From contig JAISFR010000124.1 in NCBI GenBank assembly GCA_031263565.1, positions 1 through 34,886 of the forward strand: a DNA stretch of 34,886 nucleotides. Reading direction: 5' to 3'. The first letter of the stretch is position 1. The number at the start of each line of letters is the position of its first letter. The notes under the pieces are model-generated. The model worked only from the letters and a program-made list of their open reading frames with translations. It ran no database searches and was not told the DNA's origin. Below are positions 29,140 through 34,852 of the stretch, one piece after another. Position numbers and translations under genes: made by a program. The DNA comes from Candidatus Adiutrix sp. (lineage in GTDB: Bacteria; Desulfobacterota; Desulfarculia; Adiutricales; Adiutricaceae).

Positions 29140-29856
29140 TCATTCGGAGTCGGAATCATCGGCCTTGGCCGGCCCCTGCCCTTCCCGCTCAGGCTGGTCA
29201 TAGCCGCCGGGTCGCTGGTGAGACCCAAAGCCCTCGCGGCCGTGAAACCCGCGGCGATCGCACGGGCCGCGAAACCCGCACCGCTCATGCGGGCCGTGAG
29301 GATGATGGAAATGACCACTCAGACGCTGGAGAAAACCAGGGCCGTGACCGGGCCCCAAGCGGCCGCCGCCCCGCCCGAAGCGACCCCGCCCGGAATCTTC
29401 CTCCCCGGAATCGAACCTGGTCTCCCAATCGCCGATCAGCTTGCCCAGAAGGCTGTGCAACTGTACTAATTCATCCTGACTCAAAGAGCCGAAAACTTCT
29501 TCGGCCATTTCGGCCCGGTCGTCACCAACGCTTCTCAACATATTTTCACCTTCCTCGGTCAGCATGATGTCAATGGTTCTTTTGTCCTCTTCATTGGGCC
29601 GGCGCCTGATCCAGCCCGGCTTTTCCAGCTTGTTCAAAAGCTCGCTCAAAGAAGCCGAGCGCATATCCAGCATTTCGGCCAGCTGGCGCTGGGTGACCGG
29701 GCCAACCGAGGCCAAAAGGCGCAACAGGCGGCCCTGGGCCGGGGGCATGGGTCCGGCGTTCCGCCGGCGCCTCAGATGCGGACCGCTGCGGTGCAAAAGA
29801 TGGACGCTGTGATGAAACATTTCCAATAATTCTATCTTGATCTGGTCTTCTTCCAT
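29140..29856 (-). CDS. MarR-family regulator with Gly/His/Arg-rich tail
   Basis: A 238-residue transcription factor. Residues about 5-145 form the MarR winged helix-turn-helix, with QRQLAEMLDMRSASLSELLNKLEKPGWIRRR (56-86) as the DNA-reading part and the wing with the conserved D-x-R (EEDKRTIDIMLTEEG). The last 88 residues (151-238) are an unusual low-complexity tail full of Gly, Arg, His and Pro (GRFGRGGGRLGPGHGPGF, GHFHHPHGPHERCGF) that ordinary MarR proteins lack; it contains two Cys and many His and could bind metal or nucleic acid. I start at 29856, after AGGGG, not at the upstream in-frame start at 29907. It follows a small cysteine protein by 19 bp and probably controls the shared promoter. 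Confidence 0.88.
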   Translation of the reverse strand: MEEDQIKIELLEMFHHSVHLLHRSGPHLRRRRNAGPMPPAQGRLLRLLASVGPVTQRQLAEMLDMRSASLSELLNKLEKPGWIRRRPNEEDKRTIDIMLTEEGENMLRSVGDDRAEMAEEVFGSLSQDELVQLHSLLGKLIGDWETRFDSGEEDSGRGRFGRGGGRLGPGHGPGFLQRLSGHFHHPHGPHERCGFRGPCDRRGFHGREGFGSHQRPGGYDQPEREGQGPAKADDSDSE

Positions 29857-29875
29857 GTTTAACCCCTGGCAGCTC

Positions 29876-30070
29876 TTATGAGCGAAAAAAATCCCGCCCC
29901 TTTTCACAGCCCAAGTCGCTGAGGGAACAATGGTTGCGGCAGAGCGAGCAGTGCCCTATTTCCGAACGGGTCGCAGTCGGAGCGGCCGTGCCCGGATCGA
30001 CAGGCCGGTGGCCCCAACGGCGGTGAAGGTAGTGACGGCCGCGGCCGAAAAAAGAGATATAGTGACGCAT
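29876..30070 (-). CDS. Small cysteine-motif protein upstream of marR
   Basis: A 64-residue protein not recognised as a characterised family. The N-terminal part is rich in Arg, His and aromatic residues (FFGRGRHYLHRRWGHRP, 7-23). The C-terminal part carries the motif C-x2-C-x3-C-x6-C (Cys41, 44, 48, 55 in HCSLCRNHCSLSDLGC), suited to bind a zinc ion or iron-sulfur cluster. The ATG at 30070 follows AGGAG; the longer in-frame start at 30130 lacks this support. It is the first gene of the MarR operon, under a promoter flanked by two palindromes. The tail of the MarR protein has a similar Gly/Arg/His composition, which hints at a shared role. Confidence 0.65.
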   Translation of the reverse strand: MRHYISFFGRGRHYLHRRWGHRPVDPGTAAPTATRSEIGHCSLCRNHCSLSDLGCEKGRDFFRS

Positions 30071-30210
30071 TTGAACTCCTGCTTCTTGAACTCGCGTTTT
30101 GACGCGGTGGTGGTTTTTGGCTTTCTTCACCGGCTTGTCAGCCTTGAAAAAATGAAAGCCTGACTGGAATTTGCGGACTTGGGCGCCTAAACATAAAAAG
30201 CGGCGTCTTC

Positions 30211-30232
30211 ATTTACAAGGTACCTTGTAAAT
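30211..30232. promoter_or_regulatory. Perfect 22-bp palindrome, MarR-type operator O1
   Basis: ATTTACAAGGT (30211-30221) is followed directly by its exact reverse complement (30222-30232), centred on GGTACC. It lies just downstream of the -10 box of the minus-strand promoter of the small-protein/marR operon. Perfect palindromes of this length next to a marR-family gene are typical autoregulatory operators. Confidence 0.75.
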
Positions 30233-30233
30233 A

Positions 30234-30262
30234 AGAATGCCACTTCCGTCTTCTTTTGTCAA
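30234..30262 (-). promoter_or_regulatory. Promoter of the small-protein/marR operon
   Basis: On the minus strand TTGACA (30262-30257) is a perfect -35 box, followed after 17 bp by CATTCT (30239-30234), a weak -10. Operator-like palindromes lie on both sides, one upstream of the -35 and one over the start of transcription. Confidence 0.65.
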
Positions 30263-30272
30263 GAAAAAATAT

Positions 30273-30284
30273 TAAGGTACCTTG
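30273..30284. promoter_or_regulatory. Second GGTACC palindrome, operator O2
   Basis: TAAGGTACCTTG shares the AAGGTACCTT core with the perfect palindrome at 30211-30232. Centre-to-centre distance is about 57 bp. It lies upstream of the -35 box. Two sites bracketing a promoter allow cooperative repression. Confidence 0.6.
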
Positions 30285-30321: not shown

Positions 30322-31101
30322 TCAAGAATAAACATGGACACTGCCCTGGGCGGACGGCAGGTAGGAGACTCCCAGCCAGGTGATCATCAACAGCAGCAGG
30401 GCCAGAGACAACAGCCCCAAGGTCAGCCGGGGCCTGATGTCTTTGAGGCGCATATGAATGTAAAGCAGATAGGCCGAGGCGGTCACCAGGGCCCAGGTCT
30501 CCTTGGGGTCCCAGGACCAGTAATGGCCCCAGGCCTCCTTGGCCCAGGCCGCGCCGCTCAAAAGACCCAGCATCAGAAAGCCGAAACCCACATAGACCAC
30601 ATTGTCCAGAAAGGCATAGAGTTCCGGGTCGGCCTGGCCACGTTTTAGGCGCCGCAACTGCACCAGGCCGGCCATGGCGGCCACCCCCAGAAGAGCGTAG
30701 GCCAGCATGTAAACCGTCACGTGGGGAATAAAATAGACGCTTTGCAGGGCCGGCATCAGGGCCTGGGAGTGTATTTCGGGCTTCAAGAGGTTGATGATCG
30801 CAAAGACCGAGGCCAGCAGCGCCGAGAAAGCCAGCAGCCAGGGGTAGGGCCAGCGCCTGTAGGCCAGATAGCCCGCCCCGGACAAAAAAAGCGAATACCA
30901 CAGGCGGGTCTCGCCCATGGTGCGCATGGGCGGGCGGCCCAAGTCGCGCCAGAAGGCGGCCACAAAGACCGTGAAAACAGCCAGGCCGGCCAGAAGAGCC
31001 GCCTCGGCCAGCCGCCGGCGGCCCCGCATGACGGCCGCGGCCGACAGCCACCACAGGCCGACGGCCGGGGGGGCCAAATAGTTGAATTCAGTCCAGGTCA
31101 T
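30322..31101 (-). CDS. ccsA: Cytochrome c biogenesis protein CcsA/ResC
   Basis: Integral membrane haem-handling subunit of system II cytochrome c maturation, which carries haem to the periplasm and joins it to apocytochrome with ResB/Ccs1. The 259-residue protein has about eight membrane helices and the WWD signature WGHYWSWDPKETWALVTASAYLLYIHMRL (about 191-219), plus conserved haem-ligand-like His residues (FIPHVTVYM and near the C terminus). It starts 60 bp after the resB-type gene on the same strand. Together with nrfHA upstream it forms a respiratory cluster. A weak AGGTG lies before the ATG. Confidence 0.95.
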   Translation of the reverse strand: MTWTEFNYLAPPAVGLWWLSAAAVMRGRRRLAEAALLAGLAVFTVFVAAFWRDLGRPPMRTMGETRLWYSLFLSGAGYLAYRRWPYPWLLAFSALLASVFAIINLLKPEIHSQALMPALQSVYFIPHVTVYMLAYALLGVAAMAGLVQLRRLKRGQADPELYAFLDNVVYVGFGFLMLGLLSGAAWAKEAWGHYWSWDPKETWALVTASAYLLYIHMRLKDIRPRLTLGLLSLALLLLMITWLGVSYLPSAQGSVHVYS

Positions 31102-31161
31102 GAGTCGGCACCTGATAATAACAGTCCCTAAGCGCCAGAAAAACCGTCATTCTTTGGGCGA

Positions 31162-32406
31162 TCAGACGGCCGCCCTCCGGCGGCGGCCCTGCCAGATCAG
31201 GCCAAGGGCGCCGGCGGCCAGCAAAATCAGCCCGGCCTGAACCGGAAGCAGCCAGGGATCGTAAACCAGTTCGAAACTGCTGTAAGGCGACAGGCGGCCG
31301 GAGGCCTGATCATAGCCGTATTGATAAATCATCCAGGGGCCGATTTTCAGGGGGTGGTTGACTTCCAGCGCCGCCTCCCGCTCCTGCCCTTCCCGGGTGT
31401 AGACCTTGATTTTGGAACTGAAGCGTCTGGGTTCCGGCTGGGTCATGGCCACGACCAGGTTGTCATCCAGAGCCAGAAGAGAGAGCGGCACATAGCGGTT
31501 GCCGCTCAGCACCCAGCCCTGCCTGATCTCTCCGCTGGCAAGGTTACGGGCCAGAACATGGGCGGCCGGGGTCGAAGCCGGCATGGGTATTTCCCGGTAG
31601 CCGCCGCCCTCGCCCGGCACGGCCTGGTGAATATATTCCAGCACCCTGATTTCCCACTGGCCCAGGCGGCCGTCAACCCGGCCGGGGTCGATCTGGTGCC
31701 AGTCGGGCCGGCCTTCGGGCTGGGGCCGGCCGCTATGGCGGTCCACCAAAGCCAGTTTCGGGGAATAGAAATCCAGGTCGAAATCATCGAGGCGAATGGC
31801 CAGGGGCAGCTCCAGCACCTCTTTGTTCTCACCGTAAACCCGCCACTCCACCTGGCCTTCGTTCACATACATCACGTGACGCCTGAGGTCGGCCGCGCCC
31901 AGGCCGGCCGCGGCCATTAAAAGCCACAGGCCGCCGTGGTTGAGAAAGAAGAGGAGCCCGCCCCGCTTAAAGCGCAGCCGCCTGACGGTCACCAGGGCCA
32001 GAGAGAGCAGGATAAGAAGATAAATCAGCACAAAAGGCCAGCAGGAGGTCATTTGGGCCAGACCCAGGCGCAGAAAGAAATCAGGCTCGGGCGGCAGATG
32101 GAGCAAGCGGGGGGTCAGGCCCATGATAAGACTGAGGACCATCAGGCCCAGAATCAGACTGACCGCCCAGGGCACGCTGCCCAGCCACCTGAAAAGAGGG
32201 GCGCGGCTGAACGGGCGTCCCAGCAGGGCCAGAAGCAGGATCAAGGCGCCCAGCACGACATTGACGGGATAATGGAGGAAGAAATAATCGAACGGCCCGA
32301 TGACCAGTTGGGCGGCCAAACCGCCCAGCATCAGGGCGGCGACAATCAGCAGGTTTTCCCGGTAGGAGCAGGGGAATCGCCACATTTTTTCGGGGTAGCT
32401 TTCCAT
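31162..32406 (-). CDS. resB: Cytochrome c biogenesis protein ResB/Ccs1
   Basis: Partner of CcsA in system II cytochrome c maturation; it holds the apocytochrome and keeps the haem site reduced. The 414-residue protein has N-terminal membrane helices (about 15-160: NLLIVAALMLGGLAAQLVIG, VPWAVSLILGLMVLSLIMG, WPFVLIYLLILLSLALVTV, NHGGLWLLMAAAGLG), a large periplasmic domain (about 178-380) and a last helix (WLLPVQAGLILLAAGALGLIW). The HGGLWLLMAAAGLG stretch carries a conserved His. I start at the ATG at 32406; a TTG at 32412 would add two residues. It lies 219 bp from the nrfA stop, with a hairpin in its leader. Confidence 0.9.
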   Translation of the reverse strand: MESYPEKMWRFPCSYRENLLIVAALMLGGLAAQLVIGPFDYFFLHYPVNVVLGALILLLALLGRPFSRAPLFRWLGSVPWAVSLILGLMVLSLIMGLTPRLLHLPPEPDFFLRLGLAQMTSCWPFVLIYLLILLSLALVTVRRLRFKRGGLLFFLNHGGLWLLMAAAGLGAADLRRHVMYVNEGQVEWRVYGENKEVLELPLAIRLDDFDLDFYSPKLALVDRHSGRPQPEGRPDWHQIDPGRVDGRLGQWEIRVLEYIHQAVPGEGGGYREIPMPASTPAAHVLARNLASGEIRQGWVLSGNRYVPLSLLALDDNLVVAMTQPEPRRFSSKIKVYTREGQEREAALEVNHPLKIGPWMIYQYGYDQASGRLSPYSSFELVYDPWLLPVQAGLILLAAGALGLIWQGRRRRAAV

Positions 32407-32426
32407 CTTCAAGTGGTCTGGTCGCA

Positions 32427-32456
32427 GCCGGGCAAAAAGGGCGATTTTTGCCCGGC
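32427..32456. promoter_or_regulatory. Perfect 12-bp hairpin in the resB leader
   Basis: GCCGGGCAAAAA (32427-32438) pairs exactly with TTTTTGCCCGGC (32445-32456) around GGGCGA. It ends 20 nt before the resB start. It has no trailing U-run. It might set the ratio between nrfHA and resB-ccsA expression by RNA stability or partial termination. Confidence 0.5.
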
Positions 32457-32494
32457 AGGGGACGGATTGGCCGACCGAACCGGTCGCTCCGCTC

Positions 32495-32524
32495 CGTCGC
32501 CCTCTCCGGGGTGACCGGCTATTT
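32495..32524 (-). repeat. 30-bp interspersed repeat, copy 2
   Basis: Minus-strand copy of the repeat at 2654-2683, with 28 of 30 bases identical. It lies between nrfA and resB, about 100 bp after the nrfA stop. Confidence 0.55.
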
Positions 32525-32624
32525 TTATAATCGGGCCTACTTTAAGGAATTGCTGCCTGGCCGGCGCCGGCTTCAGGAAGCTACTGATCAGCCTGCTCGC
32601 CTCGACGCAAGACCCGGCCCGGCG

Positions 32625-34112
32625 TTAAATACGCCCGTTCTTACGAGCCGCATCCAGCCACTGCGGCACCACGGTCTTCACAAATTCGGCTTTCTGGCCT
32701 CTGAGTTTATCCATATCCAGGCCGATATAAGCCTGGGCCTTTTCCTTGCTGGAAAGGTCAGGCATCTCGAATTCGGTCAGGCCCTGGCCATAAAGCACGT
32801 CCTTCAAAAGCATCTGGGCCTGAAGGGCCTTGTCCAGACCATGGGCCAGAATCCGCTGGGTCTCGATGGGAGCGTGGAAGGAAGCCCCGTGAGAGGCCAC
32901 GCCAAAGTCCCAACGCCACTGGGCGGCCCGGATCAGCTTCTGGGCCGGGGCCATCTCAGCCTCGGCGGCCCCCTTCTCCCAGGCCAGCTTGGCCATGATG
33001 TGAGCCTTGGCCAGTTCCGGCTCCAGGCGGTCGCGGATCTCCAGAATCTTGTCCTGACGCTCATAGACGTAGCTGATCAGGTTGGCCTCGGTGTCGCGAT
33101 GGCAGGTCTGGCAGGTACTGGCCACGTTCTTGAGCGGACTCATCAGATGATGGTCGGAAAACTTTAGGCCGCCCTCGGAAATGTAAGGCATATGGCAGTC
33201 GGCGCACGACAGGCCGCGCTGGCCGTGGGTGCCCAGTTTAAACAGCTCATAGTCGGGATGCTGGGCCTTGAGCATCTTGGTTTTGCTCAGGGCATGGGTC
33301 CAGTCGCCGTAGTCGAGGTTGTCGTAATAGGCCTCCATGTCCTCCATGCTCATACCGTCATCCCAAGGGAAGGTCAGGTATTTCCCGTCGCCCTTGAAAT
33401 AATATTCAACATGGCATTGGGCGCAGACCAGGCTGCGCATCTCCTGGAGGGTGGCGTCCTTGATATTTTTGCCCTGCCGCTGATAAGCCTCCACCAGGGC
33501 CGGCCGGGTGATGGTCAGGTTCATGGTGGCCGGGTCATGGCAGTCGGCGCAGCCGATGGCGTTGACCACTTCCGGGCCCCAGTCGCTCCACTTGGCCTGG
33601 TAGAAATTTTCAAGGCCCTTTTCCTGCATCAGGCGAGGCACATCCGGGCTTTTGCAGGCCCAGCAGGTGCCGGGCTGAAGGTCCCCCTGACCGTCAACGC
33701 CCGGCGCGCCCACCCGCAGGGTCTGCCGCATGTCTTCAATCGTGTACCAATGGCCCCGGGGCGCGGAATAGTCGCGGGAGAAAGCGTAGCCGGCCCAGAG
33801 GACGACCATCTCCGGCCGGTGGGCCAGGACGTCGTCCATCACGCTGCCCAGATACTTGCTTTTAAAATCCATCTCCCGGGTCTTCTTCCAGGTTTCCCAC
33901 TCCCGGGGATAGTTCTGGCCCCACAGGCCGCTCCGGGGCTCAATACCCTCAATGGGCACTTTGACGTTGTTGTAGATGGAGGCCACTTCGGCCCGGCGGA
34001 AGGTGATGGTGGCCGCCAGCACGGCCAGCAGAAAAACGCCCAGGGCCACGGCAATGAATACCGCCCCGGCCACGTAGATCGGGCCCTTGTTGATCAAGTC
34101 GTTAAACTTCAT
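32625..34112 (-). CDS. nrfA: Cytochrome c nitrite reductase catalytic subunit
   Basis: Periplasmic pentahaem enzyme that reduces nitrite to ammonium with six electrons. The 495-residue protein has the special active-site haem motif CWACK (150-154) and four CxxCH sites: CADCH (188-192), CAQCH (230-234), CADCH (303-307) and CQTCH (334-338). Other hallmarks are PRGHWYTIEDMRQTLR (118-133), which holds an active-site Arg, CHVEYYF with the active-site Tyr, KAQHPDYE (282-289) with the calcium-site Lys-x-Gln, and GTHGQRGLSCADCHMP with the active-site His. The N terminus is a single membrane segment (about 12-36). GGGGGAG precedes the start. It is cotranscribed with nrfH, 39 bp upstream. Confidence 0.98.
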   Translation of the reverse strand: MKFNDLINKGPIYVAGAVFIAVALGVFLLAVLAATITFRRAEVASIYNNVKVPIEGIEPRSGLWGQNYPREWETWKKTREMDFKSKYLGSVMDDVLAHRPEMVVLWAGYAFSRDYSAPRGHWYTIEDMRQTLRVGAPGVDGQGDLQPGTCWACKSPDVPRLMQEKGLENFYQAKWSDWGPEVVNAIGCADCHDPATMNLTITRPALVEAYQRQGKNIKDATLQEMRSLVCAQCHVEYYFKGDGKYLTFPWDDGMSMEDMEAYYDNLDYGDWTHALSKTKMLKAQHPDYELFKLGTHGQRGLSCADCHMPYISEGGLKFSDHHLMSPLKNVASTCQTCHRDTEANLISYVYERQDKILEIRDRLEPELAKAHIMAKLAWEKGAAEAEMAPAQKLIRAAQWRWDFGVASHGASFHAPIETQRILAHGLDKALQAQMLLKDVLYGQGLTEFEMPDLSSKEKAQAYIGLDMDKLRGQKAEFVKTVVPQWLDAARKNGRI

Positions 34113-34151
34113 AGCACATCTCCCCCGAGCTGTTTACCGTCAATTAAAATA

Positions 34152-34721
34152 TCAAAGCAGGTCGCTGAGCCACCCGGGAACCGGAGACTCAGGAAAAGGC
34201 ACGATGGCGCCCGGCGCGGACGCCAGATTGCTGATGTTGGTATGGGGCACCTGGCTGTGGCAGTCCCAACAGGCCCGCCCTTCGCCCTTGAGCACCTGGT
34301 CGTAGGCCACGTTCATCTTGGTGAATTCGGTCACCAGGGGACTGTGGCAGCGCAGACAGTTTTCCAGGATGACGGCGCTGGAGCCCTCCCGGGCCCGGAT
34401 GACCTGGGGCTGGCCGTCGACAGTGAAGACCGCCGCGTGATAGAGACCGTCCACAGCCTTGAAGGTGTAAGCCGAGACCAGATTGTCCTGAGGCACGTGG
34501 CAGTCGTTGCAGGTGGTCCAGAGCGCGTGGGAGCTTTTGCTCCAGGCCTGGTAATAGGGGGCCATGACATGGCAGTTGACGCAGACGGCCGGGTCTTCCG
34601 AAAGATAGGAATAGGCCCGGGAAACGTAAATAGCATAGGAACCCAGCCCGGCGATCAGCCCGGCCAGGGCAAAGATGCTCACCAGCATTTGATTCGGAGT
34701 CAGTTTGAGAAGAAAATTCAT
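34152..34721 (-). CDS. nrfH: Cytochrome c nitrite reductase quinol-oxidising subunit
   Basis: Membrane-anchored tetrahaem cytochrome of the NapC/NirT family that oxidises menaquinol and passes electrons to NrfA. The 189-residue protein has one N-terminal membrane helix (about 10-35) and four haem motifs: CVNCH (47-51), CNDCH (71-75), CLRCH (122-126) and CWDCH (151-155). Met53 in CVNCHVM matches the CHxM haem ligand seen in Desulfovibrio NrfH. The ATG at 34721 follows GGAAG; the 43-residue in-frame extension upstream shows no similarity or signal and was not used. It is the first gene of the nrfHA-resB-ccsA set. Confidence 0.97.
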   Translation of the reverse strand: MNFLLKLTPNQMLVSIFALAGLIAGLGSYAIYVSRAYSYLSEDPAVCVNCHVMAPYYQAWSKSSHALWTTCNDCHVPQDNLVSAYTFKAVDGLYHAAVFTVDGQPQVIRAREGSSAVILENCLRCHSPLVTEFTKMNVAYDQVLKGEGRACWDCHSQVPHTNISNLASAPGAIVPFPESPVPGWLSDLL

Positions 34722-34852
34722 AAATCTTCCAACATCTTTCTCCCGTCGGCACACACGGCCTGAACCCGCACTCCGGCGAGATACAGGCGCCAAACGCGAT
34801 CTTCCGACCTGAATACATCTTTCGGCGCCTGCAGGAAATCGACTCCCCACGA

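Follow-up and report, generated by a model that had tools for sequence, protein, structure and literature searches.

One-component regulators normally hold their sensor and DNA-binding parts in one chain, and autoregulation is ordinary among members of the MarR family. In the zinc-dependent member AdcR, zinc is bound within the MarR fold and not through a partner with four cysteines. To our knowledge, no described MarR member has a separately encoded four-cysteine (C4) partner or an N-terminal C4 module. ArnR has a MarR-like winged helix, and a cysteine-bound [4Fe-4S] cluster controls its DNA binding; its three cysteines, spaced 179/193/223, are in the C-terminal domain of the same protein (PMC12343034). 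ArnR has neither the compact C4 motif nor the split partner of the locus described here.

This locus, from Candidatus Adiutrix sp., encodes a small C4 protein followed by a MarR regulator. It shares with the MarR family (PF01047; MarR, SlyA, HpaR) the winged helix, an apparent autoregulation via palindromes around the promoter and, in some related loci, efflux targets. In contrast to the family, the MarR protein of the window and of the related Desulfobacterota has a long Gly/Arg/His tail. The MarR fold and a possible metal response are common to this pair and the zinc-dependent AdcR/ZitR group. However, the AdcR model NF038251, with a cut-off of 175 bits, gave 13.7 bits with the window MarR and 25 bits with a fused form. 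ArnR and AdcR both do without a separate partner of this kind, and the C4-MarR pair, judged by sequence, appears to be MarR regulation in a new form, with an undescribed C4 mini-domain at its base. A literature search of incomplete coverage turned up no account of box, motif or pairing, and this absence is weak evidence of novelty.

Organisation of the locus

The window, the whole stretch of 34,886 nucleotides that was analysed, corresponds to contig C81. Its draft genome (2.97 Mb) belongs to the same genus as genome G003. The small protein, P0001, has 64 residues with the cysteine pattern C-x2-C-x3-C-x6-C and is encoded at 29876..30070 (minus strand) by an open reading frame with an ATG start and an AGGAG Shine-Dalgarno sequence 5 bases upstream. 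After a gap of 19 bp, the MarR gene follows on the same strand (29140..29856, 238 residues from its ATG). The promoter of the pair has a TTGACA -35 element (30257..30262, minus strand) and, with 17-bp spacing, a weak, probable -10 element CATTCT (30234..30239, minus strand). Operator box 1, the perfect 22-bp palindrome ATTTACAAGGTACCTTGTAAAT at 30211..30232, covers the expected transcription start, and operator box 2, AAGGTACCTT at 30274..30283, is upstream of the -35 element. The small protein, the MarR gene, the TTGACA element and both boxes had been listed in a sequence-only reading of this DNA, and all of them were confirmed.

The MarR protein is the best MarR of its genome. It matched Pfam PF01047 with an E value of 8.5e-15 and 54.8 bits (cut-off 24.6), which identifies the winged-helix domain, and none of the equivalog models reached its cut-off with this protein. 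Its last 92 residues or so (29140..29418, minus strand) form a Gly/His/Arg-rich tail. All Desulfobacterota-type MarR proteins in the set end in a tail of 36-108 low-complexity residues, rich in Gly/Arg or His, in agreement with the earlier suggestion that the tail belongs with the pair. In its place, the fused MarR proteins of Bacillota carry 9 and 12 residues. Therefore, the tail is part of the Desulfobacterota version of the regulator. Since Gly and Arg are more constant than His, a metal-binding role of the tail should not be taken for granted.

An acyltransferase-like gene is downstream of the pair, and this adjacency is not kept in relatives. Upstream of the promoter, nrfH, nrfA and two cytochrome c biogenesis (ResB/CcsA-like) genes are arranged head to tail at 30322-34850 (minus strand). 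A link between these genes and the C4-MarR pair was rejected because the arrangement is absent in G003, G004 and the other relatives.

The C4 motif and its distribution

P0001 carries a 22-residue unit, CPLCxxHCPLxxPxCxKG, which is CSLCRNHCSLSDLGCEKGRDFF in the window (29885..29950, minus strand) and was matched by the motif profiles A2, A4 and A5. The window member has the mini-domain pattern C-x2-C-x3-C-x6-C-x2-G with CPLC and HCPL, and S replaces P at two motif positions. In 29/29 Desulfobacterota-type copies, the four cysteines and one glycine are unchanged, and CPLC and HCPL are nearly invariant. Over these 29 sequences, the mean pN was 0.25 against a pS of 0.73, a ratio of 0.34 from uncorrected values near saturation. 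This indicates purifying selection on the C4 unit, and the small frame passed the conservation check on which the earlier reading had staked its case. In G003 (L004:1494-1688, minus strand) and G514 (L115), the MarR gene is intact, but an indel, through either sequencing error or decay, shifts the reading frame of C4.

Many of the small C4 proteins have His/Gly/Arg-rich N-termini; most Desulfovibrionaceae members are rich in Gly/Arg and not in His. Pfam, searched at E up to 1 with three small C4 proteins, gave no match; nor did NCBIfam, searched with P0001 at E up to 1 and with two other small C4 proteins at E up to 0.01. Among PDB sequences, the motif profile found no significant match. The best hit was the YacG zinc finger (1lv3, 4tma; E 1.3, 12 bits, not significant), in which PFCSKRCQLIDLG weakly and locally resembles PLCxxHCPLSxPG, but its cysteine spacing is unlike that of the C4 motif. 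AlphaFold models of the small protein (pLDDT 56) and of the fused C4-MarR N-terminus (pLDDT below 50) did not resolve the C4 site.

The single-sequence search with P0001 gave mostly composition-driven chance matches at E above 0.01. The only true relatives in it, recognised by the motif, were from G003 (E 4.5e-7), G014 (E 0.03) and G004 (E 0.107); the cysteine unit of the latter two was recognised by eye in candidate loci. Where this search was too weak, the 22-residue unit was turned into a profile (A2, then A4 and A5). Matches in G028 were set aside, because their context showed no resemblance to the motif unit. By profile search, the motif was found in 25/297 sampled Desulfovibrionia genomes, in 17/298 genomes of the class of Coriobacteriales and in 2/391 genomes of the class of the Lachnospiraceae record. 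It was also found in records of Erysipelotrichaceae, Lachnospiraceae and Coriobacteriales. Plasmids yielded generic MarR only and no C4 protein, and no C4 match was confirmed in viral contigs. Some of the motif loci are MAG fragments. On one contig labelled Accumulibacter (L052:2132-4734), high-GC genes are joined to a C4-MarR-FUR-CDF segment like those of Desulfobacterota, and this contig is likely chimeric or misbinned.

In Coriobacteriia and Clostridia, the motif also occurs without MarR. Therefore, it is not specific to MarR and looks, from its sequence contexts, like an undescribed mobile mini-domain. Some members in these classes are DUF4405/cytochrome b561-like membrane proteins and carry the motif, mostly C-terminally, after the membrane domain (L057, L145, L153, L158, L142). 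The Coriobacteriia proteins have it at their C-terminus, behind a linker of low complexity, whereas its position is internal in one genome of the Clostridia class. Unlike the C4-MarR loci, these loci have no MarR nearby and no boxes.

Linkage and fusion with MarR

In 27 of the 30 motif loci L053-L082, the MarR gene comes directly after the C4 gene or is fused with it. Within Desulfovibrionia, MarR was adjacent or fused in 24 of the 25 genomes with the motif. Three of the 30 loci have no such link. The C4 gene of L055 is between ubiD- and ubiX-like genes, and in L057 the motif is the C-terminus of a DUF4405 membrane protein. In L074, a solo C4 gene is preceded by two boxes, with no MarR in the 11 kb examined. 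Since these boxes stand before a solo gene, the C4 protein itself would be a target.

Gene fusion is standard evidence of two proteins acting together. Four C4-MarR fusions were found, two in Bacillota (L056, L058) and two of Desulfovibrio type (L053, L059). In both Bacillota fusions, the C4 unit is at the extreme N-terminus of a tail-less MarR. The linked genes, the four fused proteins and the shared operator bear out the earlier proposal that the small protein is a partner of the regulator. An IS200-type transposase gene is present just upstream of the fused frame of L053 (L053:167-583), and the promoter boxes are missing there.

Paired operator boxes around the promoter

The 2.97-Mb genome holds just two copies of the box AAGGTACCTT, both of them at this locus, with their centres 57 bp apart around the TTGACA promoter. 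About 1.5 copies are expected by chance in the genome from the base composition of the window, and therefore the closeness of the only two copies is notable even before any comparison. The wider form WAGGYRCCTW was counted 21 times in the same genome against 38 in the control; therefore, no wider regulon is claimed.

In related loci, the boxes read AAGG(T/C)(A/G)CCT(T/A), mostly 57 bp apart and, in most loci, around a TTGACA promoter. With the strict pattern, at least one box was found in 26/29 related loci against 0.61 in dinucleotide shuffles, and a box pair 55-61 bp apart in 20/29 against 0.0. TTGAC[ATG] is kept 14-20 bases from box 2 in nearly all of them. In G004 and L079, GCGC takes the place of GTAC at the core of the box. 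The palindromic operators that overlap their own promoter, as in the MarR family, are thus present as two boxes and are kept upstream of orthologous operons, so that a second check of the earlier reading also came out in its favour. Autoregulation of the MarR gene through these palindromes, as that reading held, is very probable from the conservation of both boxes around the promoter.

In a reverse test, AAGGTACCT-N45-50-AAGGTACCT was scanned in 297 Desulfovibrionia genomes. All of the 13 paired-box sites were upstream of a C4 gene, and the reversed control pattern gave 2 matches. The co-occurrence of palindromes and gene pair, which had been put forward for tabulation, was found in this way. 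Twelve of the 13 loci were known already; the thirteenth, in G514, has a frameshifted C4 gene with MarR, FUR and CDF genes.

The fusion operons of Bacillota, which contain an ABC exporter or a MATE-like pump, have one or two (A/T)AGGTACCT boxes overlapping or flanking the promoter. In Erysipelotrichaceae, two boxes with TAGGTACCT flank the consensus promoter of the ABC operon of L049, which holds C4-MarR and two ABC exporter genes. In G386, a single AAGGTACCTT overlaps the -35 element of an operon of a MATE-like pump gene and C4-MarR; the pump was assigned from sequence, because the fragment scanned had no Pfam match. Because nearly the same operator is found in two phyla, a shared regulator lineage across them is indicated.

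Discussion

The linkage, the fusions, the shared paired boxes and the conserved tail together argue that C4 and MarR form one autoregulated unit. As such, the pair probably represents a new type of sensor for metals or redox state. On balance, we lean slightly towards a split one-component regulator, composed of a MarR autorepressor and a C4 sensory partner in trans whose cysteines hold a metal or an Fe-S cluster. A MarR dimer would repress the sigma-70 promoter of its own operon by binding the two conserved AAGGTACCTT boxes on either side of it. The co-expressed small protein would be its sensory partner in trans, and the arrangement in the fusions suggests that its C-terminal C4 mini-domain contacts the N-terminal dimerisation region of MarR. 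The most likely role of the four cysteines is to coordinate a metal ion or a small Fe-S cluster, the loss or gain of which would change the binding of MarR to DNA. Derepression would then supply more C4 partner and, where present, the products of efflux genes (CDF, MATE, ABC, CusB-type). In the window genome, exact boxes are found only at the C4-MarR operon, and therefore the pair itself is the sole evident output. Less in line with this reading are the occurrence of the motif without MarR, the shifted C4 frames of G003 and G514 and the lack of a transport or metal gene after MarR in most Desulfovibrionia loci.

The lack of any other exact box in this genome also makes the small protein the sole evident product of derepression, which leaves room for a buffering role. 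The small protein would then be the effector of an ordinary ligand-sensing MarR. The MarR pocket would sense a small molecule, and the His/Gly/Arg-rich and C4 parts of the peptide would buffer metals or thiols by sequestering a metal or a toxic electrophile. The box pair before the solo C4 gene of L074 favours this somewhat, and the His/Gly-rich N-termini of many C4 proteins and the motif in proteins without MarR are in line with it. However, the four fusions, two of them Bacillota forms without a His/Gly tract, point to regulation over storage, and the bias of most Desulfovibrionaceae members to Gly/Arg over His also counts against buffering. We regard buffering as unlikely, though not negligibly so.

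Cysteine-based sensing is established in the MarR family (OhrR, MarR). Disulfide formation by the cysteines, or their reaction with electrophiles, oxidants or quinones, could release MarR from DNA. Such a thiol switch, in place of a metal site, would fit the MATE, ABC and RND-type efflux genes in the vicinity of fused forms and the anaerobic lineages named as hosts in the records. We regard it as rather improbable, because four invariant cysteines at fixed spacing, with an invariant Gly and a near-invariant Pro within 22 residues, resemble a metal or cluster site more than a switch of one or two cysteines. The motif elsewhere without MarR and the solo gene of L074 could also mean that a conserved but functionally unrelated frame merely shares the MarR promoter. 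This is very improbable in view of the 24/25 linkage in Desulfovibrionia, the four fusions in two phyla and the shared boxes.

To return to the split regulator, Desulfobacterota have the sensor-like part as a tiny protein of its own and Bacillota have it as a fusion, while the operator is nearly identical in the two phyla. The pair is therefore a directly testable case of a split sensor and comes with a ready reporter promoter. Many oxygen-avoiding bacteria share the paired boxes, and the new cysteine mini-domain awaits assignment in anaerobes, where the sensing of metals, sulfide and oxygen is often unknown. As a tentative proposal, CPLCxxHCPLxxPxCxKG may be an undescribed mobile metal/Fe-S mini-domain of anaerobes, serving as a trans sensor for MarR and as a cis sensor when fused. 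Elsewhere, it would be attached to cytochrome b561-like (DUF4405) membrane proteins and to basic small proteins as a redox appendage.

Neighbouring genes and other contexts

The Fur, CDF and CusB-type neighbours in some loci give no more than a hint of metals. FUR follows MarR in L084, L090 and L115 (Pfam) and, as read from sequence, in the G004 locus (L110). CDF cation efflux genes were found in L093 (Pfam) and, read from sequence, in L115 and L052; L083 has a CusB-type adaptor with a heavy-metal-binding domain (Pfam). Most Desulfovibrionia loci have no transport or metal gene after MarR, and most loci of Desulfovibrionaceae type have nothing conserved downstream of it. In two genomes of Desulfovibrionia (L091 and L097), a DUF3861-like small protein is encoded just downstream of MarR, in L097 with 22 bits against a 27-bit cut-off.

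In G014, a genome of the same family, a small C4 protein (L010:1384-1680, minus strand) is encoded downstream of an ECF-type sigma factor gene and not beside MarR. The very Lys-rich small proteins of Coriobacteriia (L143, L144, L146-L148, L150-L152, L154, L156) end in CPCCSKHCPLSKPKCGKG or near variants and have no MarR or boxes. In a Lachnospiraceae MAG, the gene that separates ubiD- and ubiX-like genes (L050:3980-4180) encodes a small C4 protein whose tail is rich in His; some hydroxyarylic acid decarboxylase operons have a small third gene in the same place.
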